From: Kosakonia sacchari
Lineage (GTDB): Bacteria > Pseudomonadota > Gammaproteobacteria > Enterobacterales > Enterobacteriaceae
Length of the DNA: 64,000 nt
Assembly (NCBI GenBank): GCA_900109485.1
Contig: FOAY01000016.1
Span: 62,001-126,000, forward strand
Direction: 5' to 3'
The translations under genes were made by a program, and so were the position numbers. Under the pieces are notes generated by a model, which saw only the letters and a list, made by a program, of their open reading frames with translations, was not told where the DNA came from and did not search any database. Shown here one piece after another: positions 9,685-64,000 of this stretch (its first letter is position 1; the number at the start of each line of letters is the position of its first letter).

Positions 9685-10641
<957 letters not shown>

Positions 10642-19075: not shown

Positions 19076-19987
19076 ATGCAATTACGCGCGCTGCGCTATT
19101 TTAGCCAGGTGGCGAAATCCAGTTCGTTGCGTGATGCCGCCGATAAATTGTTTGTCGCGCCGGGCGCTGTCACGCGGCAAATCGATATTCTGGAACACCA
19201 CTATGGCGCGCCGCTGATCGAGCGCACGCCGCGCGGTATCAAACTGACGCGGGAAGGGGAGTTTCTCGCCCAGGCCGTGGATGCCACCTTACGCGAACTG
19301 GATGCGGTGAAAGAGCGCATCTCCAGTACGCAAAGCGTGGTGTCCGGCACGGTGCGTATCTGCGCGGCAGAGAGCCTGATCGCCGCGTTTATCGCGCCGG
19401 TTATCTGCACCTTCCGCCAGCGTTATCCTGCGGTTTCGTTTGACATTGATATTGGCAGTGCGCCGCATGTCGCCGAACAATTAATCAGCGGTAAGGCCGA
19501 TGTGGCGCTGGCGTTTTATATGCCGGTCAGCGCGGAGTTGCAGGTGACGCACTACTGTGCGTTGCAGCACAAAGTGTTGATGGCGGCGCACCATCCGCTG
19601 GCGACGAAAAGCCTGCTGAGGCTCACCGATCTTGCGCGTCATCCGCTTGCTATTCCGCCTGCCAGCTATGCGGTGCGGCAACTGCTCGAATCCGCCGCCC
19701 GGCGGGAGAGTCTGCATTTTGATTTGTGTTATATCGCCAGTTCGCTGGAAGTGCAGAAAGCGCTGGCACGGCAAGGGCTGGCGCTGTTAATCCTGCCGCA
19801 ACTGAACGTTAACGACACCACCGGGCACGAGGATTTTGTCGCCGTGCCGCTGGCGGATCCGCTGATGGGCACGGTGAAAGTGGATCTCTGCCTGCCGCGC
19901 CAGCGCACGCTGTCGATGGCGACGCGTATCTTCCATCAAATGCTGGCTGAACAAATTGACAGGCAGAATGGGTCGTTCCAATACTGA
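19076..19987 (+). CDS. LysR-type transcriptional regulator
   Basis: A 303-residue regulator. The N-terminal winged helix-turn-helix covers roughly residues 1-60 (MQLRALRYFSQVAKSSSLRDAADKLFVAPGAVTRQI), and the effector-binding domain follows from about residue 90 (VSGTVRICAAESLIA). The overall form is like Cbl/NAC-type LTTRs. The start at 19076 was chosen because it follows a strong GGGAGGGG. An ATG 87 bases upstream would add a non-homologous leader. It diverges from the MFS-amidase operon and is followed after 27 bases by a cupin gene, so it may control either or both. Confidence 0.88.
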   Translation: MQLRALRYFSQVAKSSSLRDAADKLFVAPGAVTRQIDILEHHYGAPLIERTPRGIKLTREGEFLAQAVDATLRELDAVKERISSTQSVVSGTVRICAAESLIAAFIAPVICTFRQRYPAVSFDIDIGSAPHVAEQLISGKADVALAFYMPVSAELQVTHYCALQHKVLMAAHHPLATKSLLRLTDLARHPLAIPPASYAVRQLLESAARRESLHFDLCYIASSLEVQKALARQGLALLILPQLNVNDTTGHEDFVAVPLADPLMGTVKVDLCLPRQRTLSMATRIFHQMLAEQIDRQNGSFQY

Positions 19988-20014
19988 GGTGTCACCTTAT
20001 TTCAGGAACAGCTT

Positions 20015-20512
20015 ATGAGTGCGAATACCGCCATACCGTTTGTTATCCGCAACTTTAATACCATTGAGATGGAACATTTTGTTCGCCCGCCGCTGTATGA
20101 ATCCCTGGGCGGCTCGCTGACCAAAGGCACCGCCGCCAGCAAGCTTGGCGCGTCAATCGATACGTTGCCGCCGGGTAAACGCGGCTGTCCGTTTCATCTG
20201 CATCATGCGCAGGAAGAGATGTTTATCGTGCTGAACGGGCGCGGAACACTGCGCATTGGCGATGAGGAACGGGCGATTGAAGAGGGTGATGTGATCTGTA
20301 TTCCACCGGGAAAGGCATGGCCGCATCAGATTATCAACACGTCCGATCAACCGTTGCGCTATCTCTCGATCAGCACCATGGAAAGTCCGGAAATTTGCGA
20401 ATACCCCGACGCCGATAAATTTCTCGCCAGAGCGCGCATCAACGGCAAGGAAGATTTTCGCCGGGTTGATTTTCGCGGCGAGGGCGTGGATTACTGGGAA
20501 GGGGAAAAGTAA
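20015..20512 (+). CDS. Cupin-domain protein
   Basis: A 165-residue single-domain cupin. Motif 1 is PFHLHHAQEEMFIVLNGRG, with metal ligands H61, H63 and E67 or E68. Motif 2 is GDVICIPPGKAWPHQIIN, with H104. The four ligands indicate a metal-binding site. Enzymatic or sensory function cannot be told from sequence; family members include isomerases, dioxygenases and small-molecule sensors. The start follows AGGAA. It lies 27 bases after the LysR gene on the same strand and is likely cotranscribed with it. Confidence 0.83.
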   Translation: MSANTAIPFVIRNFNTIEMEHFVRPPLYESLGGSLTKGTAASKLGASIDTLPPGKRGCPFHLHHAQEEMFIVLNGRGTLRIGDEERAIEEGDVICIPPGKAWPHQIINTSDQPLRYLSISTMESPEICEYPDADKFLARARINGKEDFRRVDFRGEGVDYWEGEK

Positions 20513-47059: not shown

Positions 47060-47266
47060 CACCAGGCTCCTGAAAATACCACGCAATAAATTGCCGGGTA
47101 TTGTATGTGATATTTTAAATGCTTGTTTAATTTATTTACCTGGCGCAGTGGTTTAAATATGAACATTAAGTGGTCGCAAAAGCATCACTATATTTTGCTG
47201 AAATAATATTTAAATAGCGATGGTGTATTTCTTTACCGTTGGCAAAACATCGCACAATAATAAGTC

Positions 47267-47293
47267 AATGCCGTTAATTAAATTAACGGCATT
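47267..47293. terminator. Long palindromic hairpin downstream of the giant operon
   Basis: Perfect 13-base arms (AATGCCGTTAATT and its complement) around one central base, 17 bases after the stop codon of the 4333-residue gene. On the plus strand it is followed by five T residues; on the minus strand the following sequence is only moderately T-rich. It is probably the operon terminator. Confidence 0.6.
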
Positions 47294-47309
47294 TTTCGTT
47301 GGCGCTATT

Positions 47310-50300
47310 TCAGCTTGCCTGGTAGGTTTTATTTCTGATATCCAACAACGCGGTAAGCGCTTTCGCGTTTTGATCCTCCTGGTAACTGTAGATCAGAATA
47401 TCGACAACCCAGCGCCCTGGTGCGCGCGGTGTTACCCCCAGCGCCGCAGCCTGTTTTTGCATTTGTTGCGCCAGGCGGGAAATGTAGTGGCCCGTTTTCC
47501 AGTCGGAGGCCACGTCAAACGCATACAGCGGCGAGAGCGTTAACGGCGTGCTCACCCGCAGTGGCGTGGTCAATGGATCCTGTGACGGATCGGCGCCTGA
47601 CCACCAGCAGGCCGCGATACGCATTGCGCGATGCGATGCGCCGAGAATGGCCGCCTGGCCTGCCGTGAGCGTCTGGAACAACGTGGCCAGCGCCTCTTCC
47701 AGTGTTTCTCCCGCCAGCGTTGTCACCGTGGTATCCGCCAGCAACGGGGAGATACGCGTCGGGAACATGGCCAGCGGCGTCTGGTAGATAAAGTCGGGGT
47801 TGATGCGCTTACCGGCCAGCAAATTAGCATTGCGCGCAATCGACGTGCCTCCCCACGCATCCTGTAGCCCCATGATATTCAGACGATAGAAAACCATCGG
47901 CAGGGTAAGCAGATCGCTGATCGGCAGCCCTTCTTGCGGCAGATCGTAAATCAGTCGATTCCCCATCTGATGGCTGACAAAACGCTGCCCTGCACCGGTA
48001 TCGATTGCAGGCCACAGGATCTGCCGCGAAAGCAGGATTGTCTCTTCGTCGGCTTTTCGCTGTAAACGGAAGGTCTGCGGGGCCGTCACGGTTTTGCCTC
48101 CGGCATAACGCTGGGTGGCCTGCGGGGCGTAGATCATCCAGTCTGAACCCGGTGTTCCGACGGTGACATAGCTCTCCGCGCCGGGTGGGAATCCGAACTC
48201 GGCCATGCGCGTCTCCAGCGCCGCCGGGATGATCCGCTTATCCAGATCGGCCGCAAAAGCCGCTGAACAGGTGAAGAGAAAATCATCCGGTTCGCTGCCG
48301 AAATCGCTGCGTTGTTCAAGACGTTCGAGGCTGATTGATGAGATCACCGTTGGTGTATTGGGGGTCAGAATCGACAACAGATAAAGATAACGGCGCGTCG
48401 GCAATCCTTTGAGATCGGGCGCAACGCTACGCAGATTGGCCCATGCGTCGCCAATTTTCTGCGCGAAACTGGCTAACCCGTTTAGCGCATTGATTGCCGG
48501 AAGCGGAATGGCTTGCTGGGTTGCGTCCTGCAACTGCGCGAGGTCGGAAGCGATGGCGTCCCACACGGTAGAAAAAGCGGCCAGCAGCGTAATGATCGGC
48601 TCATAGCGTGAATCGCGCACCAGCGGCGAACTCACCCCATCATCGGGCTGGTTAAACAGGATCTCGAAGGTGGCCTGATCCTGGGCGGCAAACTGGCGGG
48701 TCGCCGTGAAGGCATAATCCCACTGCGCCAGTGTCGCGACGGCATTCTCTGCGGGTGTGGCGGCCGACGCGGTTTGTCTGGAAACCACGGCAGGCTGCGG
48801 ATAACTGCTTAACGGCACCGGGATTTGCAACTGCCCAATCTGGCCATCAGTGTGGGCGACATTTTCCAGCGGAATAATAAATGATAACCAGCTTGAATCC
48901 TGGTAGCCGTGCACCCCGGCGATACCATGACGGTCAAACTCAAGCTGGTTAACCTGATACGCCAGTTGCAGGGTGACGTTACGCTGAACCATCGGATCTT
49001 TAACACCAAACGCGGTGGTTAACCGCGTAATGCCCTGTGCGAGCGCGACTTTCGCGGTCGACAGCGAGATTTGCGGAACCAGCGTCAGGCCACGCGGCGG
49101 CGCGCTGTCATTGAGCTGATAATGCCCGCTCAGGCTGCCGGCATCCACGCTGCCCAGTTGCGTGGCAAAAGTCTCAACATCGCCAAAGAACAGCGCGATC
49201 TTTTCCAGGGTATCGCCGGGCGAGGGGGTAAATGACCTGGAGCCCAGGGTGAGGGTTGAACCGGCACTAAAAAAGTCTGTGCGTTGCTGGTTTGCCACAA
49301 TCACATCTGCGAGGGTGGTATTTGCCCAACTGGCCACGCTGGTCAGGGTAGTCAGCGTCTGTGGCGCGGTCGTCGGGGTGACGTTAATCGCCGTGTCATG
49401 CAAAAACAGCGGCTGCGGAGTGTCGAGGATTTTGCTGTTTCCGGCCAGTTCATAAAGTGGCAGCTCCAGAGCCTGCGCGATACTGCTGAGCGTATCGCTG
49501 GCGCTCGTCACACAGATTTTGTCGGGCTGATCTTTGCGGGCAATCGTCAAATCAGGCCGGATGATGTTGCGCGTCGTCGCGAGGAGGGTCGCCAGATAGC
49601 GCGGTGATACCCCGGTCATTTCGGCAAGCGGCACCAGCGGAGCATCGTTATTGGCGACGATCTGCTGCGTGTTGACGATGTGGGTGGTTAATTTGCCGGA
49701 AAGCTGGGGCGCACTGGCTATATCGGCCGTCGGCGGTGCGCCGTCGCCCGTGACATTGAGATCAAGTTGAATCAGCGACTGCACCGTTGATGCGCTGCTC
49801 AGGGCCACAAGTAATTGCTGCTCCATGGCGTTAATGGCTTCCGTCTGCCCCTGATTATCACCGCTGATAATGGGCTGTACTCGCTGCGCCACGCCGTTGG
49901 CGATCTGCTGTTTCGCCGTGATGACCTGTTGGATAGCGGTGCGCGTTTTCGGGTGATTGGCACCGGCAACCGCATACTCTGGCGACAACACCAAATCAAT
50001 GGCAGAGAACAACTGTTGTTGCCATTGCTCCGGGTCTGCCGCGCGGAATGCGGTGGTGCCGGAACCCCATTCCAGCCCCTGTTGCGGGCTGTAGCTTACC
50101 TGTTGAGCATTGCCGTTCCACGCAAGCGTGGTCAGCGGCGGCAGGGCGAAATAGCGGGCGCTTTGGGCATCAACCGCATAATTCACATAACTGCCGCGAT
50201 CGGAAAAATTCGCCACCCACAAACTCTTCTCTTTACTCTGCGTCGCGCCGCCATTGACCGCTGCCCGCATCGATGCCTGTTTCAGCAGCGTATTTCCCTG

Positions 50301-53300
50301 CGTCTGTTGCGGGCCGGTCGCCAGCTTCAGGCCGCTGAAGGCGTTTTCAAAATCAATGGCAAACTGCGTAAGAGATTGCAGATTGTCACTGGCGGAGAAA
50401 GGCGCGGCGGTAATGGATGTGGTGGACGAAACCATCAGCGGCGCTGAATCGAACCCGGCGGCCATCATCGTCGGATCGCGTGAAATCGCGAGGCTGACGC
50501 CCAGATTCTGGATCGCCCGCTCAGCATAAGGCCGTACCTGCGCCGACAGTTGCAGGATCACCACGGGCGTAATAATCGCACGCGCAGAGAGCGCCAAATC
50601 CTGCGCAACAGCGGCGAATTCCACGGTGGAGAGCGGAGGCTGGCGGCTGGAGAGGCGAGCCTCATTAATACGGGCGAGGAGTAACGCCAGGGTGTCATTA
50701 TCCTGGACCCGGTACGGCGCACCATCAACCATGATGCTCTGGCCCGCGGTTATCCAGCCGGGCAGGCAAGCATTGGCGGCAATCAGCGCTTCAGACGTGC
50801 AGTTCAGACGCAACGCGACGGCCTTGATAGTCTCGCTTTCCCGCGATCGTACGGCAGGGGTGACGAGCAGCGCGCCGCTACGCAGCGCCCCGGCGTCATC
50901 AGCAATCCTGTCGGCCAGTTCCCCTACGGTGATAGCAAGACCTCGGGCGAGATCCTGCGGGGTATCGCTGAGCGCTGGCGTAATGCTGCCAATCGGGCTG
51001 CCGGAGAAGAGCGCTGGCAGCGTCTCGTTAAGGGTGAGTAAATCCCGGCTACTCACCGCCAGTGCGCTGGCGATTGCGGAGAGTGGCTGGCCGCTGGCAA
51101 TCAACAGACTGCCTGCCATTATCTCCTGATTGTCGCCGCTGAAGGGGATCAGCATGCTGGTGGCGCTGTTAAACGGCAGATGCAGGTTGTTGGCAATGAG
51201 ACTTCCTGCCGATATTGCTGCCTGTTGCGCCAGTGCTTCCAGCGTCTGGCCCTCCTCAATGATCAGCGCGGTATCCTCAATGTACAGGGCCGTGCTGACC
51301 GGCCAGACATTGGGCACATTCGCATTGGCGGCCATGAAGTCTGCGAGCGGATCGTTCTGCTTGCCCTGCGGTGCGCCAAAATCGGCCAGCAGGCTGGCGA
51401 TGGTATCGCCGGAATGGGCGATGACAGAGGCGATGGACAGCGTTTGCCCGCTGGCAAAAATGCCGTTTACAAACTGATTCTCAACGGCGACATCATCCAC
51501 CGTAACGTTGATGTTTTCACGCCGCTGGCTGGCTTTAACCTGCTGCGCGAACCACACCGCTGCCGACGCCAGTGAGCGGTTTTCTTCGGCGTCGGGGCCA
51601 TACTGCCAGCTATTGCCGCTGACCGGATCCGACCAGCCAAGCACCACATCGTTACCCAGCGCCAGCAACTGGCAGGTCGCGGCCATACCGGGGACATTCC
51701 CCGCCGAGGTGGCGATCGCACAACCGAAACTGAGCGCCAGCGCATTGAGCGATTGACCCGCCACATCCAGAACAACGCTGCGGGTGGCGGTACTGAACAC
51801 CGTATCCACGGCAACCGCGAGCTGCATGTTATTACGGCCGAGAGTGGTTAAATCGATGGCATCTTCGAGGTGATCAATCACCGCCTGCGGGGTGTCGCCC
51901 GCTTTGGTCAGGACATTATGCGGAACGATAAGCGGCGTCGCCGCGCCAAACAGCAGATCCGCCCGCAGGTACTGATTGATTTTCGCCACCATTTCCCCGC
52001 TTGCCGGGTAGTGGCTGAGCACATCCGCAAAATTTTTCAGCGCTGTTTCCGGCCCGAGCGTAATCCGGGTTGGCTCTATCCCGGCGGCAATGCCGGTAAA
52101 GATCCAGGCTGAGTTTGCCAGGCCCAGCAGATCGTAGCGAAGCGCCAGGCTTAACGCCGCGTTATCGTCCAGTTCGCCAAGTGTTGTCGATAAGCGGGCG
52201 GTGATATCGGGCTGCTGGAGTTGCCAACTGGCCGTCTGATATTGCAGACGCGCCTGCTGCGCTCTGCTGGCGGCCGCCGTCACCAGTTTCCCGGACGGAA
52301 GCCCGCCCCGCACAGGCACGGCGGAAGCATCCGGCAGGAAGGGCGTTGCAGAGAGCTGCGCGGTCACGGCCAGCGCGCCGCCGCCATCTCGTGGCTGGAA
52401 CCGGTAAGTGGTATTCACGGATGGCCAGGCGCCAGGACCAAGCAGTTCGTCGGTGTACCCCGTTGGGGAATGGGCGGTCGGAAGCGATGAGCCGACCGTA
52501 CGGTTGCCGAGAATATCCTGTAAACAGAGCGTGATATCCGCCTGACCGCCCGCACTGACAGCGCGGTAGGGGCTTTGCGCGGCAGACGGCAGGGCGACAT
52601 TGCCCTCGCTACTTTTGTTCCGGGCGAAAGCGATAAGCGACAGAATCTGGCGGTATTGCCAGAGACTCTCGTCAGTGTCATTGGTTGGCCCTGCCGGTAA
52701 CCCTTCATTTGAGGCATTAAGCGTTGCATTCGCGGCCAGCTGGAATCCGGCCAGGTTATAGAGCGTCCCCAGTGCCGATGCCGTTGTTTCCGCCGCGCTC
52801 TCAACTTGCGGATTGCTGCGTTGCAGCATGAAGCCTGCATGGCCTGGCGGCAGGCTGGCGCACAATTTGAGCGTATTGGCCGCGACGGTAATGACGGCGT
52901 CAGCGAGCAGGATCGGGGCAGTGGCATTCAGATCGCCGAGCAGCGACAGATCCTGTTGTTTTGCCTGCGCAATGGAGAAAAAGGTATCTCCGGCCTGGAG
53001 GATATAGCGTTCCCCACCGGGCAGGTTAAAGCTGGCGCCTGCTGCCAGCAGCGGTGTTCGGTGCGCATTCAGGGCAACCAACGCCGCAGGATCGAGAAAA
53101 TCATACTCGCTGGCGATGGTCGCCAGCGTATCGCCGTCTTTCACGGGCTGAACGGGTTTTCCCGCCAGCATCAAGCGGGCACCGGTGCGTAATATCGCTG
53201 GCCGATCGGCCAGCGAGGCAACAATCTCCGCGACCGTTTTTCCCGCGCGCAGGGCAATCGCGCTGATGCTGTCGGAGGGCAAGACTATCTGGCCTGCCAC

Positions 53301-56300
53301 CTCGCTTCCCGTGCGTAATACACCCATGATGAGCTGGTTGATTTCACCGAGCGACTGCCCGGAAAGCGCCAGGATGGGCGGCGCATTCGTCGCAATGCGA
53401 TTCAGCGTGTCGCCCTCGACAACGATGTGTGTCGCGGCTTCAAAGAAGATACTGTTCGCGCTTTGGTCAACGTTATCGCCAACAATCAAAATATTGTTAA
53501 ACGACCGGGCAATGTCGGCGTCCGCCGTCTGATTGCTCAGTAGCACAATCAGTTGCAGCGAGGCCTGTTTGCCATCGCTAAACAGTGAGCCAGGCAGCCC
53601 TGGCGTTCCATCTTCCTTCTGGTAGTAAAGGTAGTAACCGCCGTTTTTGACCACCGAGCATTCCCAGAGCAGTTGTAAAAAATTCCGGCTCTCTTCATCG
53701 GTCAGGTTGGCCAGCGACGCATCAATCAGACCGTCGTTCAGCATCACCGCAGAGTTTGCGCGCAGCAGTGTCTGGAACTCGCCGTGACTCTCTGTCGAAA
53801 GGTTGGTCTTCAGCAGGAAGCTGTTTGCCCGATCAAGCCGATCGCTGGTTTGCGTTCCATTGCTGTTGCTGGCCTGCTGTTCGCGATAGGCCAGATACAG
53901 CGTTGCGCCCACGGCGTCGTTATTTTTCAGGTAAGTCCACAGGTTTAATACCCGCTGCAATCCGGCTTGATCGGTACCGGAGAGCAGATACATGCCGGGG
54001 CGGGAGGCATCGGGTTTCTCGATGGTGAAATCAATCGCTGTCGCGTATCGCGCCGCCTGAAGCGCGGTGGTGTCGATGTTGCCATCGGGCAATGGGGTGC
54101 CGAAGCAGCCCCGATAAGGCAGTCTGCGATCCGGGCTTTCAGCGATGGCGCGAATCAATGCGTCAGGCATGCTCCAGATCCGCGGCGTGTTCACCCGCTG
54201 CGACGGTAGCGTAATGCCTTCCGGCACCTCTTCGGTTGCCCATATTGCGGTGGCGGAGACGGTCTGCCGATCGGGCAACCAGCTATACAGCGGAATCGCC
54301 TGGCTGATGATATTGGCGGTATCCAGCTCAGCCGTCGCCAGTTCGGCAATGCGTGCCATCTCTTCAGCGAGCAGGGGGATTGCCAGTTTCCCGTCGGGAA
54401 TATTGATCCACCCGGCATCGCTGCCGGTCAGCGTCAGGGTATACCCTTTTTGCGCATCTGGCGGCGCCAGCGGGTACTCCTGCCCAACCAGCGCATACAG
54501 CGGGTATGCCGCCGGGGTGTTTATCGCCAGGCTGCCTTGTTGCGGGAAGTCGGGGTCCGGCAGGCGTAAGCCATTGAGCATAAACCGCGTCGACATGTTA
54601 AGGGCATTGGTGTAGTTGCCGGTTTGCGCCAGCACGCTGGCGAGCAGTGAGCGGCGGAACCCCGGAATCGCCTTGACGGCGAGGGTTTTCGCTTCATCGG
54701 CAAACAGGCCGCCGAGGGTGGCAATCCGCCCGGTGAGCTGTTCCAGCGATAAATTGTAGTTTTGCGCAATCTCCGCGAGTGTCTCGTTTGCGACAACCCG
54801 GTGTGTGACCTGCGCAGCCAGCAGGGCGACATTTGCTGCCAGCAGGTTGCTGTCGCTTAACAGCGTGCTGCGGCGACAAAGCTCCGCCAGGGTGATGCCA
54901 AACTGGCGGCAAATGTTGCCCGGCGTGGTGAAGTACGGGATCACCACGAGGCTACCGGTGGCGAAGGGGCTTTCCGCCGCAATATTCCCGTTCCACTGCC
55001 GGATGCTGAGCAGCGCGGCAGCCTGAGCGGAGGGCGAGGGTTCAAAGAACCGTTGCGCCAGCAGCAACGGAGTCTCACCGCTGCCTGCCGTGTACTGAAG
55101 CAGGAAACTATTGCTGGCGACAACGACGATGTTTTTCAATTGCAGCGTCTGGCCCGTCGCCAGCGCAATCGCATTGTTGCTGGCGATCAGCACGTCAAGA
55201 GTGGTGCTATTCGCCAGCAGAAAATCCTGCACGCGCTCCTCATGCTCCAGAGTTACCCGTTTGTCATTTTCATTTAGCTGCGGAATGTTCAGAGTTTGCG
55301 GCGCGGCAAGCCGCAATGTGGGGTTGTCAGCCAGCAAATTTTGGGCGTTGAAATCGGTGTTACGCGCATACCAGTAGGCGATGACGCCATTCAGGCTGTC
55401 GCCGTCTCTGCTGGTCCAGGTGAAATCGCCAAGCGGCAATTTTTGTGCGGCGCGCAGCAGCCCCGGCACATTCTGGTTGCTGGCAACCAGTGCAACATCG
55501 TTTGCGCCAAACCGCGCCGCGAGGCTGGCAAAGGTGTCGCCATTTTGTGTCAGAAAAGGAATATCGCCCAGCGGCAGCAGCGTGCCCGCCCGCAGTTTGC
55601 CTGCTTTCTGCTGATTGCTCTCCGCAATGGCATACGGGCTGACGGTGAGGGGGATTAATAATAGGGTGCCGGGTTTGAGCGGGTTGAAATTCACCTGCGG
55701 ATTGGCGGCGCGCAATGCCTGAAGCGAAAGACCAAACTCGGCGGCAATGGTCGCGGCCACTTCGCCGTCGAGCACTTTATGCAGAATGCGCATCGCCGGA
55801 ATGGCAAGCTGAGTTCCGCCTGCCAGCGGGTGGAAATTCACCTGCGGATTTGCCTGCTGGAGCTCGTCCGGCTCCAGCGCAAAACAGGCCGCCAGACTTT
55901 CCAGTGTGTCCCCCGGCTGCGCAATGTAGCTGACGGCGGGCGCAGGAATGAACAGCGTATCGCCTGCGACGGGCGCGGCGCCCTCAAATTGCGGGTTGGC
56001 GGCTTCCAGCGCCTGCGGGGTTACGCTGAAGCGGGCGGCGATGGCGGGGAAATCTTCCCCTGCGCGAACGGTATAATTGTTGTTGAAACGGTTGGCCAGC
56101 GTCTGGAGTGAGGCATGAGCGGCCTCTTTCTCCGATAACGGCCACTCGGCTTCGGCCATAAAACTTTTTGTTTGCTGCAGCAGACTGCGCGCCACCATCA
56201 GGAAGTAGTAGCGGAAGATCAGCCGCGCCATGCTGTCTGGTTGACTGGCGTCCTGGGTTTTATTGCTGTTCCAGCCCTGGCGTTCAGCAAACTGCGCGGC

Positions 56301-59300
56301 CAGCTCGGCAAAATAGTCCTGGATCCGCTGCTCGTAACCCGCCGCAGGGATGCGATCGGTGAGGAAGTTAATCGTGTAGTCCGGCGTCTCCAGCGACAAT
56401 TCCGGGATCATCGCCATCAGCGCCATCGGCAGTTCGCTGCCGTCGGCCTGCGCCTGCTGCGGGCGCGGTTGCAGCGTGAACTGAATATGATGGTTGTCAA
56501 AAAGGTGTACCAGGTTGGTATAGCTAAAAATTTCCGTTACGGCATCCGGCGCTTTGAGGGCATCAAGGATCTCATCGACGACAGCGGCGGAGAGCGTGGC
56601 ATGTTCATCGCCAATCAGCGATGAAAGCCAGTCGGACATAAAGCTCAGCAACTGGTTTGTGCCGCTGGCCGCATCCGTTGAGGTTTCAATCCCCAGCAGG
56701 AGGGCCAGCACCGGGTTTTTCCCGGCAAAGGGAACCGTCGGCGCGCCGGAAAAGGCAAAATCATCGGCAATCGCCTGGGAGAACAAGGGAATCGCCGTCA
56801 CATTAACGCACAGAGGTGCGCCTGCGTTATGCCGATAGCGGGACAAGATATGGCGGGCCATCATCGTTCTCGCCGGTCGCAGGCGAAGTTGACCATACTG
56901 CGGCTGGCGAATGAACGGGCTTTTCGCGCGATAGAGGCTGCGTTGTACTCCGGTATTGGCGGGCGCGGAAAGTATCCACGGAGTCTGGCGGTTTGAACCA
57001 ATCGGGAAAGTTTCCGTGATCGTCGCCGAGAAGCTGAAATTGATACGGATAAAGATAATTTTGATACTGACTTTAACGCGAACCCCGGCGCTGACGCTCA
57101 GCAGGATCGCCCGATAACTTTCGACATCAATCGCCGCCGAGACGTAAATGGTGAGCGACACACTGGCCTGAATAATGCCGAAGTCAACGGTGGCATACAC
57201 CTGGCCGATAACCGCCAGCGCACCGCGCAGGTGGAAGTAGTTTTCAGGCACTAAAGCCTGATCGATGGGATTGAACCATGAGAGCGTGCCTTGCAGCATA
57301 CCGCCGACGGTGATGCTGATACCGCCGGAGAGAATGCCCAGCGACAGCGTTTTCCCGACGCCGACCTGCAAGGCAAAACCAAATTCGATAACCGGGGTGA
57401 AATTGCCGTTGGATATGCGCGGTATGGTTGTGGATGTTTCGCCATTGAGAACGCCAAAGTAGAAACCGCCGTAGCCGATAAACGGAAAGACCTGTACCGA
57501 AAAACTGCGGGAAAAGTCGGTGAGCGACGGAGGGAAACCGGCGTCGATACGAAAATTGCCGTTGGTAAAGATATCAACAGTGACAATCGGCAGAGTAATG
57601 GAAACCTCGCCAAACTCCAGATGGCGCATGGTGTCGGGTAACGTCAGTTCAATATGGTATACGCCGACATTGTCGCTGATTTTGCGATAGAGGATCTCAA
57701 AACGCAGACCCGCCAGCGGGCCAGCGCGTGAACCGGCTAGCTGGATCAGCAGGCCATAAACGCGCGGATCGTTGAACACCATACTTAATGACACGGTCGA
57801 CATGGCCGTAAAACGCGTGCCGATCATCCAGTCTGAACCGGCGTCATAGCTCAGGCCCGGAAGCTGATTCGCCGGGTTCCGGGTTGGATTCCCCACCGGA
57901 ATCAGTGCGTTTTCCAGTCGTTTGATCACCCCATCCATGGTGGTGGGCATCTCGCCGCGCAGGGTCATGCGCTGGCCGATGCCCAGATATTCTAGGTCGA
58001 AAACCTGCGTACCCGCGCCGGGCACCACTGGTGGTGCCTGATTAAGCGGATCCCAGCTTAGCGGTTTATTATCGCCTCCGTAGCGCTGGCCCAGAAATTC
58101 ACAGCTCAGTTCAAGATTGAATTTGGGTTTGCCGTACTGTTTCACATAGGTGAGGGTGAATTGCGTAATCTTGATAAACCCGAGGTCGACATTGAGCCCG
58201 ATGCTGACGTTAATTTTGCGGGTTTTGAGATGTACGTTGACCGTCAGATTGGGAAGCGAAATTTTCTCCAGCGCATTCCAGGGTTCGCCCAGTGCAATAT
58301 TCCGCCCCGGCTGGGCAAAGGAGAGAAGAAACGTAAACAGATCGCCCACGTTACTCTTTTCCAGACTCACCGCCACGTAGGGATCGGTGTCGTCCTTGTG
58401 GTAAACCACTTTGAGGTTGCGGTAGGCAAAAATAATGTCTGTTGTCGTCGGGCTAAAGATGTAAGAGCAGGTGAGGATCATGTTGTTGATATCAACAATG
58501 CCGGTTAACTGCCCGGAATAGCTTGCCGGATCGCTGGCTTTCGCGCGGTCCGACCTGATCAACAGATCGGCCGTAATACTGATCGGCAGGAAGTCGAGCG
58601 TCCATTGCAGGGTGGTCTGTACCATGAAGGTGTTGGCGGCGGTATTAAACTTCACCTGCAGCGCATTCAGCGTAATGTCCGTCGGCAGGGATTGCGGAAT
58701 GAAGGGCAGCAGCTGGCTGGCAACACTGATCAGGCTCACCGGCTTGCTTGCGATCATGCGCCCCTCAAAAATCCAGGCTTTGGATTGCGTCGAGGTCTGC
58801 GCGCTGACGATAAACGGGATCCCCAAAAATTCCGTATGCGCCTGAATGGTGGCGGTTAAGTTGGTCGGCGTCCGCTCCAGATCGAGGCGCAAACTTTTCA
58901 GCGACACGGCTTTGATGCCGCGACCAAACTCCAGTGTCCAGGCCCCCGATTTGGGCGCAATGGTTCCGCTGAACAGCCAGGCACCGGTAGCGGGCTGGAT
59001 CTGCGCCGATAATCCCCCCGCCGGGGTAACAATTCCCGACTCTGGCAGTGTCGGCAAACCGGGGACGATATTGAGTAATTGCAGGATATCGATCTCGGCG
59101 TTGTTGTACGCCATAAGCGTGACACTGTCACTACCGCCGGGTACAGAGAAACTTAACCCACCGTAAAATCTCAGTTGTTCCTGGCCATTGAGTTTGAACA
59201 GGCCATTGATAGCGATCCATGCCGAGAGATCGACGCCCACGCTGAAGGTGAAAATGACACTCTCCAGCACTGCCAGATTGAGCGGCAGCAAATGGATTTC

Positions 59301-60311
59301 CGTGTGGGCTTTGACCGTCGCCGACACCTGTAACGTTCTGGACGCCGTAATGTCGAGGGTGAACGCCAGTTCTTGCAAAAGTAGATCTGTTCCCAGCGGA
59401 AACCGGTTCGGCAGCAGAGCATCTGCGACTTCGCCCATCAGCAGGCTGGCGATATCGGCGATCGAACTCAGAGAGACCGCGAGCGAATCGTTGCTCAGCG
59501 CAAGGGGATCGCCGTCATCGAGGAGAGGGAAATGCAACTCAATCCCCGACAGCGCCAGCGTTCCGGCATCAAAGGTGGCGATACCGTGGCTGGTATCATC
59601 GTCGGCTGGTGATGAAACAAACAGTAACCCTGCTTTTAGCGGTAGCAATCCGGCAGCCGGAACGGCGTCAACAGGCTCCGAACGCAACACAAAGGCAGGC
59701 GGCAGCGCGCGGTCCCTTGTCGGCCACTGGCTGATGCTCCCCTGCATCGCGGCGGGATGGGTTTTCCACATTCCCTGATAGCTGGAACCGGCGACCGGCT
59801 GCCCGCTGAACGTGACGCCAGTGCCGGCATCGGAGGACGAGGCGGTAAACACGGCATTGCGGAACAGGGTTATAGCCGCGGCAGAAACGGTGTGTTTTTT
59901 ATCGTGAGGCTTCAGTCCCGGAAACGCGGTGCCTAAGACAGCGCTGTTATCGGGAAGGTGAGTGCTGACGCTGAGTTGCGCGACGCCGTTCGCCGTTACG
60001 CTAAAGGTGGCGCTGGCTGCCGGTTGGGAAACATTGAAGGAATTACCGTCAATTTGCCCCGTCAGAACAATCGTATTACCGTCGCCCGGTGGTTGCACCC
60101 CGCTAAGGGTCATCACCAGTGAGGCGGTGGGAAAGAGATCCGCATCATTCAGCAGCGCGCTGACAGGCGCTGAGTGCAGTGTATTGGCGGCCGGCAGGTT
60201 GAATTTTTTCTGATCGGCTGACAGGTAACCTGCCGACAGCAGGGTATTCCACAGATTCTGAATCGGCGTATCGATGCTGGATGGCGTGTTGCGCGTTTTT
60301 TTGCCGGGCAT
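47310..60311 (-). CDS. Giant 4333-residue protein: beta-rich N-terminus, long LysM-like array, unknown C-terminus
   Basis: A single uninterrupted reading frame of 13 kb; I do not know its function. Residues 1 to about 1105 are beta-rich, with alternating hydrophobic strands and many glycines (for example FPFIGYGGFYFGVLNGE near 950). From memory this resembles the DUF6603 type of large bacterial proteins, at low confidence. Residues about 1110-1400 look helical. From Y1413 three adjacent, fairly canonical LysM domains occur (YTVRAGEDFPAIAARF at 1413, YIAQPGDTLESLAACF at 1462, HKVLDGEVAATIAAEF at 1510), each with an ANPQ element and an IP end. Degenerate LysM-like units continue to about residue 3720. 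The C-terminal 600 residues are unrecognised. No signal peptide is visible. The start follows GAGG and overlaps the upstream stop (TAATG). Confidence 0.85.
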   Translation of the reverse strand: MPGKKTRNTPSSIDTPIQNLWNTLLSAGYLSADQKKFNLPAANTLHSAPVSALLNDADLFPTASLVMTLSGVQPPGDGNTIVLTGQIDGNSFNVSQPAASATFSVTANGVAQLSVSTHLPDNSAVLGTAFPGLKPHDKKHTVSAAAITLFRNAVFTASSSDAGTGVTFSGQPVAGSSYQGMWKTHPAAMQGSISQWPTRDRALPPAFVLRSEPVDAVPAAGLLPLKAGLLFVSSPADDDTSHGIATFDAGTLALSGIELHFPLLDDGDPLALSNDSLAVSLSSIADIASLLMGEVADALLPNRFPLGTDLLLQELAFTLDITASRTLQVSATVKAHTEIHLLPLNLAVLESVIFTFSVGVDLSAWIAINGLFKLNGQEQLRFYGGLSFSVPGGSDSVTLMAYNNAEIDILQLLNIVPGLPTLPESGIVTPAGGLSAQIQPATGAWLFSGTIAPKSGAWTLEFGRGIKAVSLKSLRLDLERTPTNLTATIQAHTEFLGIPFIVSAQTSTQSKAWIFEGRMIASKPVSLISVASQLLPFIPQSLPTDITLNALQVKFNTAANTFMVQTTLQWTLDFLPISITADLLIRSDRAKASDPASYSGQLTGIVDINNMILTCSYIFSPTTTDIIFAYRNLKVVYHKDDTDPYVAVSLEKSNVGDLFTFLLSFAQPGRNIALGEPWNALEKISLPNLTVNVHLKTRKINVSIGLNVDLGFIKITQFTLTYVKQYGKPKFNLELSCEFLGQRYGGDNKPLSWDPLNQAPPVVPGAGTQVFDLEYLGIGQRMTLRGEMPTTMDGVIKRLENALIPVGNPTRNPANQLPGLSYDAGSDWMIGTRFTAMSTVSLSMVFNDPRVYGLLIQLAGSRAGPLAGLRFEILYRKISDNVGVYHIELTLPDTMRHLEFGEVSITLPIVTVDIFTNGNFRIDAGFPPSLTDFSRSFSVQVFPFIGYGGFYFGVLNGETSTTIPRISNGNFTPVIEFGFALQVGVGKTLSLGILSGGISITVGGMLQGTLSWFNPIDQALVPENYFHLRGALAVIGQVYATVDFGIIQASVSLTIYVSAAIDVESYRAILLSVSAGVRVKVSIKIIFIRINFSFSATITETFPIGSNRQTPWILSAPANTGVQRSLYRAKSPFIRQPQYGQLRLRPARTMMARHILSRYRHNAGAPLCVNVTAIPLFSQAIADDFAFSGAPTVPFAGKNPVLALLLGIETSTDAASGTNQLLSFMSDWLSSLIGDEHATLSAAVVDEILDALKAPDAVTEIFSYTNLVHLFDNHHIQFTLQPRPQQAQADGSELPMALMAMIPELSLETPDYTINFLTDRIPAAGYEQRIQDYFAELAAQFAERQGWNSNKTQDASQPDSMARLIFRYYFLMVARSLLQQTKSFMAEAEWPLSEKEAAHASLQTLANRFNNNYTVRAGEDFPAIAARFSVTPQALEAANPQFEGAAPVAGDTLFIPAPAVSYIAQPGDTLESLAACFALEPDELQQANPQVNFHPLAGGTQLAIPAMRILHKVLDGEVAATIAAEFGLSLQALRAANPQVNFNPLKPGTLLLIPLTVSPYAIAESNQQKAGKLRAGTLLPLGDIPFLTQNGDTFASLAARFGANDVALVASNQNVPGLLRAAQKLPLGDFTWTSRDGDSLNGVIAYWYARNTDFNAQNLLADNPTLRLAAPQTLNIPQLNENDKRVTLEHEERVQDFLLANSTTLDVLIASNNAIALATGQTLQLKNIVVVASNSFLLQYTAGSGETPLLLAQRFFEPSPSAQAAALLSIRQWNGNIAAESPFATGSLVVIPYFTTPGNICRQFGITLAELCRRSTLLSDSNLLAANVALLAAQVTHRVVANETLAEIAQNYNLSLEQLTGRIATLGGLFADEAKTLAVKAIPGFRRSLLASVLAQTGNYTNALNMSTRFMLNGLRLPDPDFPQQGSLAINTPAAYPLYALVGQEYPLAPPDAQKGYTLTLTGSDAGWINIPDGKLAIPLLAEEMARIAELATAELDTANIISQAIPLYSWLPDRQTVSATAIWATEEVPEGITLPSQRVNTPRIWSMPDALIRAIAESPDRRLPYRGCFGTPLPDGNIDTTALQAARYATAIDFTIEKPDASRPGMYLLSGTDQAGLQRVLNLWTYLKNNDAVGATLYLAYREQQASNSNGTQTSDRLDRANSFLLKTNLSTESHGEFQTLLRANSAVMLNDGLIDASLANLTDEESRNFLQLLWECSVVKNGGYYLYYQKEDGTPGLPGSLFSDGKQASLQLIVLLSNQTADADIARSFNNILIVGDNVDQSANSIFFEAATHIVVEGDTLNRIATNAPPILALSGQSLGEINQLIMGVLRTGSEVAGQIVLPSDSISAIALRAGKTVAEIVASLADRPAILRTGARLMLAGKPVQPVKDGDTLATIASEYDFLDPAALVALNAHRTPLLAAGASFNLPGGERYILQAGDTFFSIAQAKQQDLSLLGDLNATAPILLADAVITVAANTLKLCASLPPGHAGFMLQRSNPQVESAAETTASALGTLYNLAGFQLAANATLNASNEGLPAGPTNDTDESLWQYRQILSLIAFARNKSSEGNVALPSAAQSPYRAVSAGGQADITLCLQDILGNRTVGSSLPTAHSPTGYTDELLGPGAWPSVNTTYRFQPRDGGGALAVTAQLSATPFLPDASAVPVRGGLPSGKLVTAAASRAQQARLQYQTASWQLQQPDITARLSTTLGELDDNAALSLALRYDLLGLANSAWIFTGIAAGIEPTRITLGPETALKNFADVLSHYPASGEMVAKINQYLRADLLFGAATPLIVPHNVLTKAGDTPQAVIDHLEDAIDLTTLGRNNMQLAVAVDTVFSTATRSVVLDVAGQSLNALALSFGCAIATSAGNVPGMAATCQLLALGNDVVLGWSDPVSGNSWQYGPDAEENRSLASAAVWFAQQVKASQRRENINVTVDDVAVENQFVNGIFASGQTLSIASVIAHSGDTIASLLADFGAPQGKQNDPLADFMAANANVPNVWPVSTALYIEDTALIIEEGQTLEALAQQAAISAGSLIANNLHLPFNSATSMLIPFSGDNQEIMAGSLLIASGQPLSAIASALAVSSRDLLTLNETLPALFSGSPIGSITPALSDTPQDLARGLAITVGELADRIADDAGALRSGALLVTPAVRSRESETIKAVALRLNCTSEALIAANACLPGWITAGQSIMVDGAPYRVQDNDTLALLLARINEARLSSRQPPLSTVEFAAVAQDLALSARAIITPVVILQLSAQVRPYAERAIQNLGVSLAISRDPTMMAAGFDSAPLMVSSTTSITAAPFSASDNLQSLTQFAIDFENAFSGLKLATGPQQTQGNTLLKQASMRAAVNGGATQSKEKSLWVANFSDRGSYVNYAVDAQSARYFALPPLTTLAWNGNAQQVSYSPQQGLEWGSGTTAFRAADPEQWQQQLFSAIDLVLSPEYAVAGANHPKTRTAIQQVITAKQQIANGVAQRVQPIISGDNQGQTEAINAMEQQLLVALSSASTVQSLIQLDLNVTGDGAPPTADIASAPQLSGKLTTHIVNTQQIVANNDAPLVPLAEMTGVSPRYLATLLATTRNIIRPDLTIARKDQPDKICVTSASDTLSSIAQALELPLYELAGNSKILDTPQPLFLHDTAINVTPTTAPQTLTTLTSVASWANTTLADVIVANQQRTDFFSAGSTLTLGSRSFTPSPGDTLEKIALFFGDVETFATQLGSVDAGSLSGHYQLNDSAPPRGLTLVPQISLSTAKVALAQGITRLTTAFGVKDPMVQRNVTLQLAYQVNQLEFDRHGIAGVHGYQDSSWLSFIIPLENVAHTDGQIGQLQIPVPLSSYPQPAVVSRQTASAATPAENAVATLAQWDYAFTATRQFAAQDQATFEILFNQPDDGVSSPLVRDSRYEPIITLLAAFSTVWDAIASDLAQLQDATQQAIPLPAINALNGLASFAQKIGDAWANLRSVAPDLKGLPTRRYLYLLSILTPNTPTVISSISLERLEQRSDFGSEPDDFLFTCSAAFAADLDKRIIPAALETRMAEFGFPPGAESYVTVGTPGSDWMIYAPQATQRYAGGKTVTAPQTFRLQRKADEETILLSRQILWPAIDTGAGQRFVSHQMGNRLIYDLPQEGLPISDLLTLPMVFYRLNIMGLQDAWGGTSIARNANLLAGKRINPDFIYQTPLAMFPTRISPLLADTTVTTLAGETLEEALATLFQTLTAGQAAILGASHRAMRIAACWWSGADPSQDPLTTPLRVSTPLTLSPLYAFDVASDWKTGHYISRLAQQMQKQAAALGVTPRAPGRWVVDILIYSYQEDQNAKALTALLDIRNKTYQAS

Positions 60312-63300
60312 TATTGGTTCCTCTGTGCCGCCAGAAGTCGCTGCTGGAGTTGGGAAAGTGCGGATTCTGAGTGCAGCTGTGTCAGGCGCTGCGCCGGTTT
60401 TCCCCCCGCGCCGCCTGCGCCGTTTTTCACCCAGGCGGCGTACCAGCCCAGTGCGCCGCTGGTCTGCGCATCCGGGTTACCAAACATCAAAAGATCAATT
60501 TGCCCGTTTGGCGGAAAGCTCAGGGCAAGGAGTTTGAGGGCGATATCGCCCAGCTTGAGAATGTAGGTTGGCGGATCCACCAGAAAGGTGACGTCGGCGA
60601 AAACCAGTTTGAGTACGCCTTCAATCGGAATGGCGCGCTCTCCGCCTTTCACTCCCGGCAAGTGCAGGCCAATGTAGATCCCGGATTGACGCGTCTGGCT
60701 CGCCGGAGACCAGGCGAGGAGCAGGCCGGCGGTGAAATCGATTTTGGCGGCCAGCGCGCCCGCCGAGCCGAGATCCAGTTCATATTGCAACCCAAACCAC
60801 GGCGCGGTCATCGCTATACCGTTGAGGGGTGAATCCACCGGCATATACGCCATTTTGTCGGGGGTAACGTCTCCCGTCCCCTGAATCAGGGCCGTGAGTT
60901 TCATGGGGAAATGTGCCGCCAGGCTTTGTGCGCGGACGTGGCTGGCGTTGGCATCTGGCAACAGCGGCTGGGCATTAAACGTAAACTGCCGGTACTGCGG
61001 CGTCGCAGGATCAAAGGTCATCTCGATTGTCAGGCCGGAATAGGCCAACCCTTCCACATTACCATTCCCCTGATTTGGCGTGGCGGCGCCATAGGAAAGC
61101 AGGTCAAACTGCGGCTGTTGCAAGAAACCGATTGTGCCATTGAGTGCAAACGTTGTGCGCGTTGTGCTGTTCTCCGCGTCGGCTTTACCGCCGCTGGCCG
61201 TAACAAAACTTGCCGCCCGGATACCGACGGCATCAAGGATCTGGCTGGTTATGCCGTAGGTGGTGTGATCCGCGGTCGTGAACAGATAGCTTCCGCTGTT
61301 GCCGGATTTTTGATAAACGCCGTACAGCAAAAGATTATTGCCGCTTGACGATGAATACTGTGTGGCGGGCTCTTCAAAGAGCTGGTTGATGAGCAGTTCG
61401 ATTTTGCTGGAAAACGAGACAATTCCTGAGTTGGCTATCGCCACCTTCAGCGACAGGACTTTGAAGTCGTAAGGCGTGTTTCCTGACAGGTGTTCATTGT
61501 CTTCATAATCAATCAGGCCAAAGGCCGAGCTGGGGTGGCTGGTCCAGGTGCTCTGGCCTGCAGCGATCGGTGTGACGGAAATACCGATGTGGTGCGCCTG
61601 AAAACGCGAGACATCAATTCCGGCGGCCAGCCCCTCAAGCTGTGGCGGAAGCCCGGTCAGCGGGACCTGGGCGTTCAGAGCGAGAACGCCATTCCAGCTT
61701 TCGCTCTCCATCACCGTATTAACGAAGTAAGACAAATCACCATCACCGGCCGCAACGCGTTCGGTGGCCGCCGCAAAAATCGCCTGAATCCGTTGTCTCG
61801 TGCCATCCGCGGAGCTGTTGAAACGATCGGCGTCCGCCCATTGCGCCGTATCGTCAACCAGTTGCGACAGCTTTTTATTACAGAATTTGAACAGCAACAG
61901 AGTGTTGTAATTGACCCAGCGCCACGGCGAGAGATCGAATTCCCAGTCTGCAACAAACAGGCTGAAATCACCCAGAGCATTGCGCACGGTATCGAATACG
62001 TTTGCCAGTTGTTCCGGCGTAAATCGGGCCGCCAGATCGGCGTGCAGGGCTGCCAAATCGGGCCACTGCGTGGGCACCATCGCGGCAAGTTTCGCGTTGA
62101 CGTCCGGATCCGTTATCTGCAAAGCGAGCTGCCGCTGCCGCACAGCGGTGAGGGAATAGGGAATCGACGCGCACTGGCTCATGATCTCGGCGCCGGTGAT
62201 AACCAGAAAAAGCTGGTTCGTCTGTAATGCGGATTTCAGTTCGCCGTTCACGTGGCTCAACAGTAGCCTGTCGGCGCGATGGGGCGGCGTGTTTGCCGCG
62301 CTGGATTGCCCCAGCGTCAGTTGCTGCCAGGTTAACCCTGTCGCGTCCTCACCCAGCGCCAGCAGTAATCCCTGCGGTGTCGTTGAGAAAGGCGGCGAAG
62401 GCAGCGATGCGCGTAAACGCTCGGCGCTTTCTCCTGTCTGAATCAGCGTCTGGACAACGGTGCGACGTTTCGGCGACAACACCTGAGTCTCCATATTTTT
62501 GATATCAGAGCCGGAGATATTGGTGGCTTTAACCGAACGGTAGGGCGCCAGCGGGAAGGCGACGGGAGGCGAATCACCGTGATCAGCGCGGGCGAGGCGG
62601 GTTTGCTGGTCCTCAACGTTGCCGACGGAAACGGGCAGGTAGGTCAGAAAATCGCCGTCGGCGGCAGAGTCAGGGGCCTGGTGTAAGACCGAGCTGTCGG
62701 GCTGGGCAAAGTATTCGCTGCTTTGCGCGGCTTGCAGTGTCACCCATGATGTTTTCCCGGCGCCTGTCAGAGCACCGAACACCCGATCGCGTCCGGGGGC
62801 GGCATTTTGCAACGTGCGGGCAAATGCCTCCTGATGGGGTGTGAACGCCAGTATTGGGTTACCGGTATATTTGAAATACTCGACAGAGGATAATCCGCCC
62901 ATCAGTGCATTTTGCAGCGAGGCGGCCGTGGCGTCGGCTTGCCCCTGCGACGAGAGCAGAAATTCGAACTCGCCAGCGGGCGTCAGATACAGCGACTGGT
63001 TACCGCGCAGAATGACGGGCTGACCGCTGGCATCGACCGCCGCCAGCCGTTCGGTAAAGACCAGCCCGGCGCTGGCGAGCGGTTTTACTTCCACCGCTGC
63101 GCCTGCCGCGGATTGATAGTACGTGGGCAGCGAAAGCGCACCGTTGGACAGTTGCAGGAAGGAGCGCGTGGTGTCGCAGGGGGCGAGGGGATCAATGGTT
63201 CCCTGCAGCGTCAACTGCGAAGTCGCATCCTGCAAATTAAAGATTCGGTACAGTGCGGTTTGGGTATAGCCGCCCTCTGCGGGCGCAGAGAAACTGCGTA

Positions 63301-63883
63301 ATCCAATATCCAGAATATCGCTTGCGGCTTCGCTGGTGACGGAAAACGCCAGCGACAGCACATTATTCGGTGCGGCGTCATTCAGCAATTCCAGCCCGAG
63401 ATGATCGAGGGCGAACGGCTGCGGGGTTCGCTCGCCGGTGGGGGTAACCAGCAGCGTACCGCGACTAAAGGTTAACGCTTGTGCTGACGCCACTATCGTG
63501 CTGTCTTTCGGCAATGAGAGGGCAAAATTGCCGAACGGCACTTCCGCCGTGCGCAGGAGGGTCACGTCGGTTCCGTTTTTACGGGCAAACAGGACGGTTG
63601 CGGTTAATCCCGCAATGCTGGTGAACCAGGCCGCCAGCGCATCCTTTCGCGCTGAGTTGCCAAACCAGACCTGCGCTTTTTGCTCAAATGCCGCCAGATC
63701 CGTGATGGCCGTGGCGGGAAGCTGGACAAACCATCCGTGGTACGCATAAAGCGCCTGTTCAACGGTGAGGCTGTCAGGCAGCGTGGTGACGTCTGTTGAG
63801 AGTAAAAAGCCACCAAAGCAGTTTTCGCCGCCCGGCGCGATGTACAAACGCGAACCCGCATAACACGGCACGAAATGAGCCAT
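60311..63883 (-). CDS. Large 1190-residue protein of unknown function, partner of the giant LysM-like protein
   Basis: I do not recognise the family. The start at 63883 (MAHFVPCYAGSRLYIAPGG) follows GGGGAGGAG; a frame beginning at 63898 would lack this. Residues 1-430 appear beta-rich. Around 370-380 there is a P-loop-like stretch (FGALTGAGKTSW), probably fortuitous because no Walker B is evident. About 560-780 looks helical and tryptophan-rich (FVADWEFDLSPWRWVNYNTLLLFKF). The C-terminal 400 residues return to beta structure with glycine-rich turns and end in a short Gln/Arg-rich helix. No signal peptide or membrane helix stands out. The stop codon overlaps the start of the 4333-residue gene as TAATG, so the two are probably made in a fixed ratio and may form a complex. 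Confidence 0.82.
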   Translation of the reverse strand: MAHFVPCYAGSRLYIAPGGENCFGGFLLSTDVTTLPDSLTVEQALYAYHGWFVQLPATAITDLAAFEQKAQVWFGNSARKDALAAWFTSIAGLTATVLFARKNGTDVTLLRTAEVPFGNFALSLPKDSTIVASAQALTFSRGTLLVTPTGERTPQPFALDHLGLELLNDAAPNNVLSLAFSVTSEAASDILDIGLRSFSAPAEGGYTQTALYRIFNLQDATSQLTLQGTIDPLAPCDTTRSFLQLSNGALSLPTYYQSAAGAAVEVKPLASAGLVFTERLAAVDASGQPVILRGNQSLYLTPAGEFEFLLSSQGQADATAASLQNALMGGLSSVEYFKYTGNPILAFTPHQEAFARTLQNAAPGRDRVFGALTGAGKTSWVTLQAAQSSEYFAQPDSSVLHQAPDSAADGDFLTYLPVSVGNVEDQQTRLARADHGDSPPVAFPLAPYRSVKATNISGSDIKNMETQVLSPKRRTVVQTLIQTGESAERLRASLPSPPFSTTPQGLLLALGEDATGLTWQQLTLGQSSAANTPPHRADRLLLSHVNGELKSALQTNQLFLVITGAEIMSQCASIPYSLTAVRQRQLALQITDPDVNAKLAAMVPTQWPDLAALHADLAARFTPEQLANVFDTVRNALGDFSLFVADWEFDLSPWRWVNYNTLLLFKFCNKKLSQLVDDTAQWADADRFNSSADGTRQRIQAIFAAATERVAAGDGDLSYFVNTVMESESWNGVLALNAQVPLTGLPPQLEGLAAGIDVSRFQAHHIGISVTPIAAGQSTWTSHPSSAFGLIDYEDNEHLSGNTPYDFKVLSLKVAIANSGIVSFSSKIELLINQLFEEPATQYSSSSGNNLLLYGVYQKSGNSGSYLFTTADHTTYGITSQILDAVGIRAASFVTASGGKADAENSTTRTTFALNGTIGFLQQPQFDLLSYGAATPNQGNGNVEGLAYSGLTIEMTFDPATPQYRQFTFNAQPLLPDANASHVRAQSLAAHFPMKLTALIQGTGDVTPDKMAYMPVDSPLNGIAMTAPWFGLQYELDLGSAGALAAKIDFTAGLLLAWSPASQTRQSGIYIGLHLPGVKGGERAIPIEGVLKLVFADVTFLVDPPTYILKLGDIALKLLALSFPPNGQIDLLMFGNPDAQTSGALGWYAAWVKNGAGGAGGKPAQRLTQLHSESALSQLQQRLLAAQRNQ

Positions 63884-63884
63884 T

Positions 63885-64000
63885 TTACTCCTCCCCACTT
63901 TTTGTCACGCGTGTGGTGCTTAACACGCCTGCGGCGTTAGTGAGCTCCAGCGGGGCATCGTAGCGGTAGTCGTGATCTTTATCGTAGACAGTGACCCAGT
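63885..64000 (-). CDS. C-terminal end of a third gene in the giant operon (partial)
   Basis: An open frame enters from the right edge and gives WVTVYDKDHDYRYDAPLELT, then a short threonine/valine tail ending in KSGEE and a TAA stop. The stop codon is one base from the ATG of the 1190-residue gene, so the two genes are clearly in one operon. The fragment is too short to name; it looks like the end of a beta domain. Confidence 0.7.
   Translation of the reverse strand, partial: WVTVYDKDHDYRYDAPLELTNAAGVLSTTRVTKSGEE

Follow-up and report, generated by a model that had tools for sequence, protein, structure and literature searches.

A LysM-studded protein of 4333 residues and its horizontally spread gene set in Kosakonia sacchari

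A 64,000-nucleotide stretch of Kosakonia sacchari DNA (contig FOAY01000016.1, positions 62,001 to 126,000; hereafter the window) contains an intact reading frame of 13 kb, and the question it raises is what a protein of such length, here called C, might do in an enterobacterium. An earlier note on this DNA, made from the letters alone, had suggested that C may be the core of an undescribed system, a proposal well supported by conserved operon partners, by relatives at 57 loci in many phyla, and by core proteins that belong to no known family apart from LysM. Because two or three huge structural proteins often accompany a single interchangeable enzyme, the gene set may represent a bacterial weapon or a defence machine that has so far gone unrecognised. 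Tentatively, with a probability of about 0.42, we favor a machine that is released from the cell and carries a nucleic-acid-damaging payload, X.

A conserved gene set with an exchangeable enzyme

The gene for C, the last of its operon, occupies 47310..60311 on the minus strand, a strand that the earlier note had left unstated, and runs from an ATG to a stop codon over 4333 residues with no internal stop in a check of its open reading frame (ORF). The genome of a sister species (G003) carries the same frame intact, with 96% amino-acid identity across the 4333 residues, and comparison of the two copies gave a nonsynonymous divergence (dN) of 0.018, a synonymous divergence (dS) of 0.167, and a dN/dS of 0.11. 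Because G003 carries an intact C and dN/dS is 0.11, we reject a sequencing artefact; the frame is uninterrupted by frameshifts and conserved at the protein level. Searches of Pfam and NCBIfam returned LysM-type families for C and no full-length match to a characterised family.

The operon comprises seven genes on one strand, namely those for two small paralogues (158 and 132 residues), A (462 residues), X (297 residues), a 252-residue protein, B (1195 residues), and finally C. The contig extends 13.7 kb beyond the window, and this extension (L002) holds the genes upstream of B. The B frame (60311..63898, minus strand), whose stop overlaps the C start, probably begins at the ATG at 63883 behind a GGAG, which would give 1190 residues. 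Only the 3′ end of the 252-residue gene (63885..64000, minus strand) lies in the window; the whole gene spans L002 5886-6644, and its product has an N-terminus that looks signal-like by eye. Between the two Kosakonia carriers, dN/dS was 0.08 for A, 0.09 for B, and 0.13 and 0.14 for the small genes, and thus the core genes of the island are constrained. The corresponding values of 0.42 for X (dS 0.07) and 0.80 for the 252-residue gene (dS 0.04) reflect few changes. The two small paralogues lie in tandem (L002 8964-9362 and 9411-9887), recur at L013-L016, had no Pfam match, and were seen only in the window's clade. The best solved structure for their profile, 4jox, a 13.6-kDa insecticidal crystal protein, aligned over nearly the full length but with an E value of only 0.043; we take 4jox to be Cry34/Gpp34, of the aegerolysin type.

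One scan of 84,980 species genomes with a profile of the most conserved C domain found relatives of C at 57 loci, a lower bound because the scan used two short peptide patterns and is biased toward relatives that keep them. A common module emerged, consisting of A (~450 residues; 33 of 57 loci), B (~1200 residues; 49 of 57), C (57 of 57 by design), and a variable slot, X; several of the missed A and B genes reflect short contigs, and B and C form a single chain at 5 of the 57 loci. Because ORF calling was mechanical and tblastn served to place several X genes, some starts and lengths are wrong. A tree of the quick kind, built from 53 of the 57 loci plus the window (with one member, L058, lacking a phylum name and another, L069, forming a very long row), included at least nine phyla: Pseudomonadota, Acidobacteriota, Actinomycetota, Cyanobacteriota, Bacteroidota, Bacillota, Chloroflexota, Verrucomicrobiota, and Vulcanimicrobiota. 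Phyla intermingle on this tree with high support, Oceaniradius grouping with a metagenome-assembled genome (MAG) of Pseudonocardiales and a Peptococcaceae MAG with Rhizobium, each with support of 100, and the module has therefore moved between lineages; judged from its sequences, the gene set is horizontally spread and mobile.

The fold in the slot changes from locus to locus. The place of X in the operon varies, from between A and B in the window's clade to between B and C at other loci. Recognised enzymes occupy the slot at 36 of the 57 loci: a DNase I-like endonuclease/exonuclease/phosphatase (EEP) at 22, a metallo-beta-lactamase (MBL) fold at 12, an HNH protein at 1 (L027), and a deaminase at 1 (L050). 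These four kinds have unrelated folds. Pfam alone, applied to 30 slot proteins at E ≤ 0.01, recognised 12 Exo_endo_phos, 4 Lactamase_B, and 1 deaminase. The L050 deaminase scored 41.2 bits against a PF14439 cut-off of 38.5, whereas the L027 HNH protein reached 19.9 bits against a cut-off of 21.4. Window X matched the EEP family PF03372 over nearly its full length at 19.9 bits, below the cut-off of 24.5, and NCBIfam MnuA at 9.2e-7, far under that family's cut-off, and it contains the GDWN and TDH motifs. Across the family, GD-x-N was present in 23 of 24 EEP proteins (L030 lacks the pattern) and [S/T]DH in all 24; HxDxDH was found in 11 of 12 MBL proteins, L041 lacking it as searched. On the tree, EEP and MBL require at least two switches, and all four labels together require nine. 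Because the enzyme kinds differ while the catalytic motifs stay, we conclude that the fold in the slot changes and the theme of nucleic-acid attack is kept, and X is probably an enzyme that attacks DNA or RNA. Lipids or phosphoinositides can serve as EEP substrates as well, however, and the substrate of X is for this reason an inference. In the cyanobacterial locus L037 (9233-9748), and also in L038 and L039, the slot holds a 171-residue protein; in the MAG locus L056 it holds two small related genes, and a subtilase gene (19515-20468) follows the giant.

Domain layout of the giant

LysM is the one part of C that domain libraries recognise. Pfam PF01476 matched with 132.8 bits against a curated cut-off of 20.9 (E 3.8e-39), and five stretches passed individually. 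A family-iterated profile found 17 units at a domain E ≤ 1e-4 and 21 at E ≤ 0.01, compared with none at either level in 20 shuffles of the C protein. The E values are in-sample, however, profile drift would escape a shuffling control, and degeneration is seen in many of the units. The units extend from residue 1413 to 3723. The earlier note's estimate of 20 or more units over about 2300 residues therefore stands, but its picture of a single array does not, as the units form four separate blocks with conserved non-LysM stretches between them. All coordinates that follow are on the minus strand. Block 1 (residues 1413-1873; 54693..56075) was found by both the iterated profile and PF01476, and block 2 (residues 2295-2475; 52887..53429), block 3 (residues 2913-3243; 50583..51575), and block 4 (residues 3601-3723; 49143..49511) by the iterated profile. 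Segment matches and alignment A8 define two of the intervening stretches, at residues 1951-2290 (53442..54461) and 2485-2700 (52212..52859). Segments covering residues 1951-2400 had matches in 48-49 of 59 locus sets and segment 2401-2700 in 37 of 59, where the 59 include two duplicates (L007 and L036 are the same record, as are L008 and L033).

The N-terminal part of C (residues 1-769; 58005..60311) is beta-rich in an AlphaFold model of residues 1-1165, as the earlier note had expected; the model has a predicted local distance difference test (pLDDT) score of 84 and a predicted template modelling (pTM) score of 0.49. In a single pairwise hhalign comparison of alignments A2 and A5, this part matched B with a probability of 98.7, an E value of 2.4e-16, and 12% identity, and by this profile comparison the two proteins are homologous and both beta-rich. 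The most conserved part of C (residues 770-1114; 56970..58004) is predicted to form a porin-like amphipathic beta-barrel: its topology in the model is barrel-like, and hydropathy alternates along strands that are hydrophobic on one side. Its structural matches superimposed with root-mean-square deviations of 6-8 Å and, among the matches listed, 4-11% identity. Foldseek gave eight matches at E ≤ 0.001, to S-layer complex, SlpA, ApoB100, and LptD entries. The conserved C-terminal part (residues 3541-4333; 47313..49691), which overlaps block 4, was modelled with a pLDDT of 87 and a pTM of 0.79 as sandwich-type domains plus an alpha-hairpin and had no usable fold match and no toxin match.

In agreement with the earlier note, hydropathy, the only criterion applied, revealed no signal-like stretch at the N-terminus of C, and 3 of 53 C frames were marginal. 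By the same measure no signal was found on any of 41 B proteins, whereas 4 of 5 members of the window's clade (E_297, L013, L014, and L016) have a hydrophobic, signal-like start on X, which for the island X is also apparent by eye.

Delivery, defence, or another role

How might these parts work together? In the scheme that we favor, the homologous beta-rich proteins B and C, with A as a helper, would form an apparatus and X, a nuclease or nucleic-acid deaminase, would be its payload. The signal-less giants would assemble inside the cell and leave it by lysis or another route, the LysM blocks would hold the particle on the cell wall of the target or on other glycans, and the predicted amphipathic barrel of C would open a passage through the target membrane, through which X may pass to damage DNA or RNA. 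In the window's clade, the two small aegerolysin-like proteins would contribute binding to membranes, and the 252-residue protein, which follows X only in this clade, may shield the producer against X. Direct observation covers the operon and its conservation, exchange in the X slot, the kept catalytic motifs, and the island. Delivery is a suggestion that fits the LysM blocks, the amphipathic barrel, a LamG domain in the A protein of Nostoc, and, in the window's clade, the exported X and the weakly aegerolysin-like proteins. The earlier note had listed an effector among the possible roles of the giant; our results point instead to C as the structural or delivery part and to its separate neighbor X as the effector. 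The broader proposal, which we hold with somewhat less conviction, is that A, B, and C represent a phylum-crossing class of machine that carries or controls interchangeable nucleic-acid-destroying enzymes and passes them across a target membrane through a porin-like barrel, itself set in a chain of over 4000 residues that is studded with LysM units. Such a machine would have no kinship with phage tails, Tc toxins, or known secretion systems.

Several results weigh against delivery. The barrel is predicted (pTM 0.49 over the entire modelled piece, deviations of 6-8 Å), the carriers of this domain include monoderm lineages, and binding of peptidoglycan or chitin by the LysM-like units is putative. 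Hydropathy indicated no secretion route for B and C, and since a signal in the window's clade is confined to X, carrier and payload would exit the cytoplasm differently. At 21 of the 57 loci no recognised enzyme fills the slot, a count that includes L037 and L056, whose slot proteins had no Pfam match, and some contigs that end early. No obvious immunity gene adjoins X in most locus listings, which were not tested systematically for one. Finally, PADLOC comparison places the MBL and HNH payloads nearest to anti-phage effectors.

This last kinship makes cytoplasmic anti-phage defence a serious rival, which we rank somewhat below the delivery machine. Here, B and C would sense infection and release or activate a swappable X, which would destroy nucleic acid and thereby stop phage growth or kill the infected cell. 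Among eight slot proteins given to PADLOC, five matched (4 MBL and 1 HNH): the L023 and L026 MBL proteins resembled LmuA of Lamassu (2.6e-15 and 3.2e-13), with further MBL matches to RTasMBL and Avs1a, and the L027 HNH protein resembled PtuB of Septu (2.5e-22 over ~65 residues). A patchy, mobile, island-borne distribution, the lack of a signal on B, and the lack of an evident immunity gene at most loci would also suit defence. PADLOC had no model that matched any of the seven island proteins at E ≤ 0.1, however, the core proteins A, B, and C being among them, and the EEP of L020, the deaminase of L050, a Nostoc peptidase, and the window's own EEP had no match either. The size of C, its LysM blocks and barrel, and LamG would be unusual in a cytoplasmic sensor, and the signal-like start of X in the window's clade fits defence no better; a signal on X and none on B or C is poorly explained by both schemes. 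A surface, matrix, or nutrient-acquisition complex, in which the giant binds glycans or a DNA-rich matrix and X breaks down nucleic acid outside the cell, would account for the LysM blocks, the sandwich-type C-terminal domains, LamG in Nostoc, and the exported X. A slot deaminase and payloads resembling intracellular effectors are ill-suited to feeding, and B and C carry, as judged by hydropathy, neither a surface anchor nor an export signal, so that we consider this reading improbable. Less probable still is a beta assembly for lipids or other hydrophobic cargo, with a hydrophobic lumen as in ApoB or LptD and a functionally unrelated X; the eight Foldseek matches speak for it, and the one-sided hydrophobic strands could face inwards.

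Comparison with known systems helps to place the delivery machine. Polymorphic toxin systems also pair an unchanging carrier with interchangeable toxins of nuclease or deaminase type, comparable to the four enzyme kinds found here in one slot, and LysM and LamG occur among their adhesion modules (PMC3482391). Unlike the toxins described there, X is a separate gene rather than the C-terminus of the carrier, the carriers are unrelated by Pfam, and an immunity gene is not evident. Extracellular contractile injection systems share a mobile operon, environmental hosts, and varied toxins, and LysM is named among their accessory domains (PMC8213781). No sheath, tube, spike, baseplate, or AAA family was detected by Pfam among the seven island proteins, and the contractile-tail genes that the earlier note had thought worth seeking were absent from these seven, the neighbors at other loci having been scanned in part. 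Anti-phage systems such as Septu, Lamassu, and Avs1a have effectors related to the HNH and MBL slot enzymes, but their models do not cover the core proteins. Outer-membrane porins resemble residues 770-1114 in predicted topology and alternating hydropathy, but the C barrel lacks a signal peptide, is buried in a 4333-residue chain, and occurs in monoderm lineages. We regard the system as new by its parts, whereas exchanging the effector of an otherwise constant carrier follows a known logic. Searches of open-licence PMC texts revealed no description of such a system; subscription papers and preprints were outside the scope of this search. A, B, and C of the window matched no family other than LysM-type ones in Pfam, NCBIfam, or PHROGs, and the PHROGs matches of the giant were of lysis or LysM type only.

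If the proposal is true, nucleases are delivered or triggered here by a new kind of architecture, horizontally spread over at least nine phyla, and a common pool of effectors is used by a kind of machine that lacks description. Such a machine easily escapes notice, given the huge size of its core parts and their absence from every domain library searched. Both leading readings lend themselves to direct tests, as the operon and the catalytic gene are defined and effector variants exist in nature.

The Kosakonia island and neighboring features

The operon lies on an inserted island of ~21 kb, of which 47178..64000 is in the window. Homology of the flanks with G009, G007, and G004 ends at window positions 47174-47178 and restarts at L002 10149; at this site these genomes have ~0.9, ~0.9, and ~3.1 kb instead, and the island is absent. 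The flanking genes are ~23 kb apart in both carriers, 2-5 kb apart in G004, G005, G007, G009, G013, and G014, and 8.5-9 kb apart in G008 and G012; they are split over two contigs in G006, and four genomes of the genus had no match to one of the two. Carriage is patchy: 2 of 15 genomes in the genus, 1 of 369 in a class sample searched with the C-terminal part (the window's own), and 3 of 398 in a phylum sample searched with the conserved domain (the window's own included). G+C content is 0.585 for C, 0.584 for B, and 0.465-0.51 for the other five island genes, compared with 0.548 for window positions 1-47300.

Other origins were considered and rejected. No tRNA gene is present in L002 or L004, which speaks against a tRNA-borne insertion. 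As a phage gene, C found no phage record with the C-terminal query and no viral contig with the whole protein. Plasmids held no near copy, and distant relatives occur on three of them; a 2989-base query had no match in E. coli at blastn sensitivity. Membership in DUF6603 (PF20248) was likewise discarded, with no match in the window C, an E value of 0.063 for a Conexibacter giant, and an hhalign probability of 1.5 with three DUF6603 proteins. Large DUF6603 proteins do occur in Conexibacter and Leptolyngbya genomes (L076 and L061, on one contig, L075, L077, and L079), in Conexibacter within ~40 kb of the giant.

Smaller features were noted beside the module. In Nostoc (L036 18163-20523), the gene after the giant encodes a LamG protein that also has a weak match of papain type, with a caspase-annotated gene further on. 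Related proteins upstream of A at L030 (147-617) and L045 (87-548) are presumably Hint- or intein-like, as judged by eye. In the window, a hairpin with a T-rich tail (47268..47292, minus strand) looks by eye like a terminator 3′ of C. At the other end of the operon, a stretch of ~300 bp upstream of the first island gene (L002 ~9880-10210) is very AT-rich, and such stretches are common in acquired regions.
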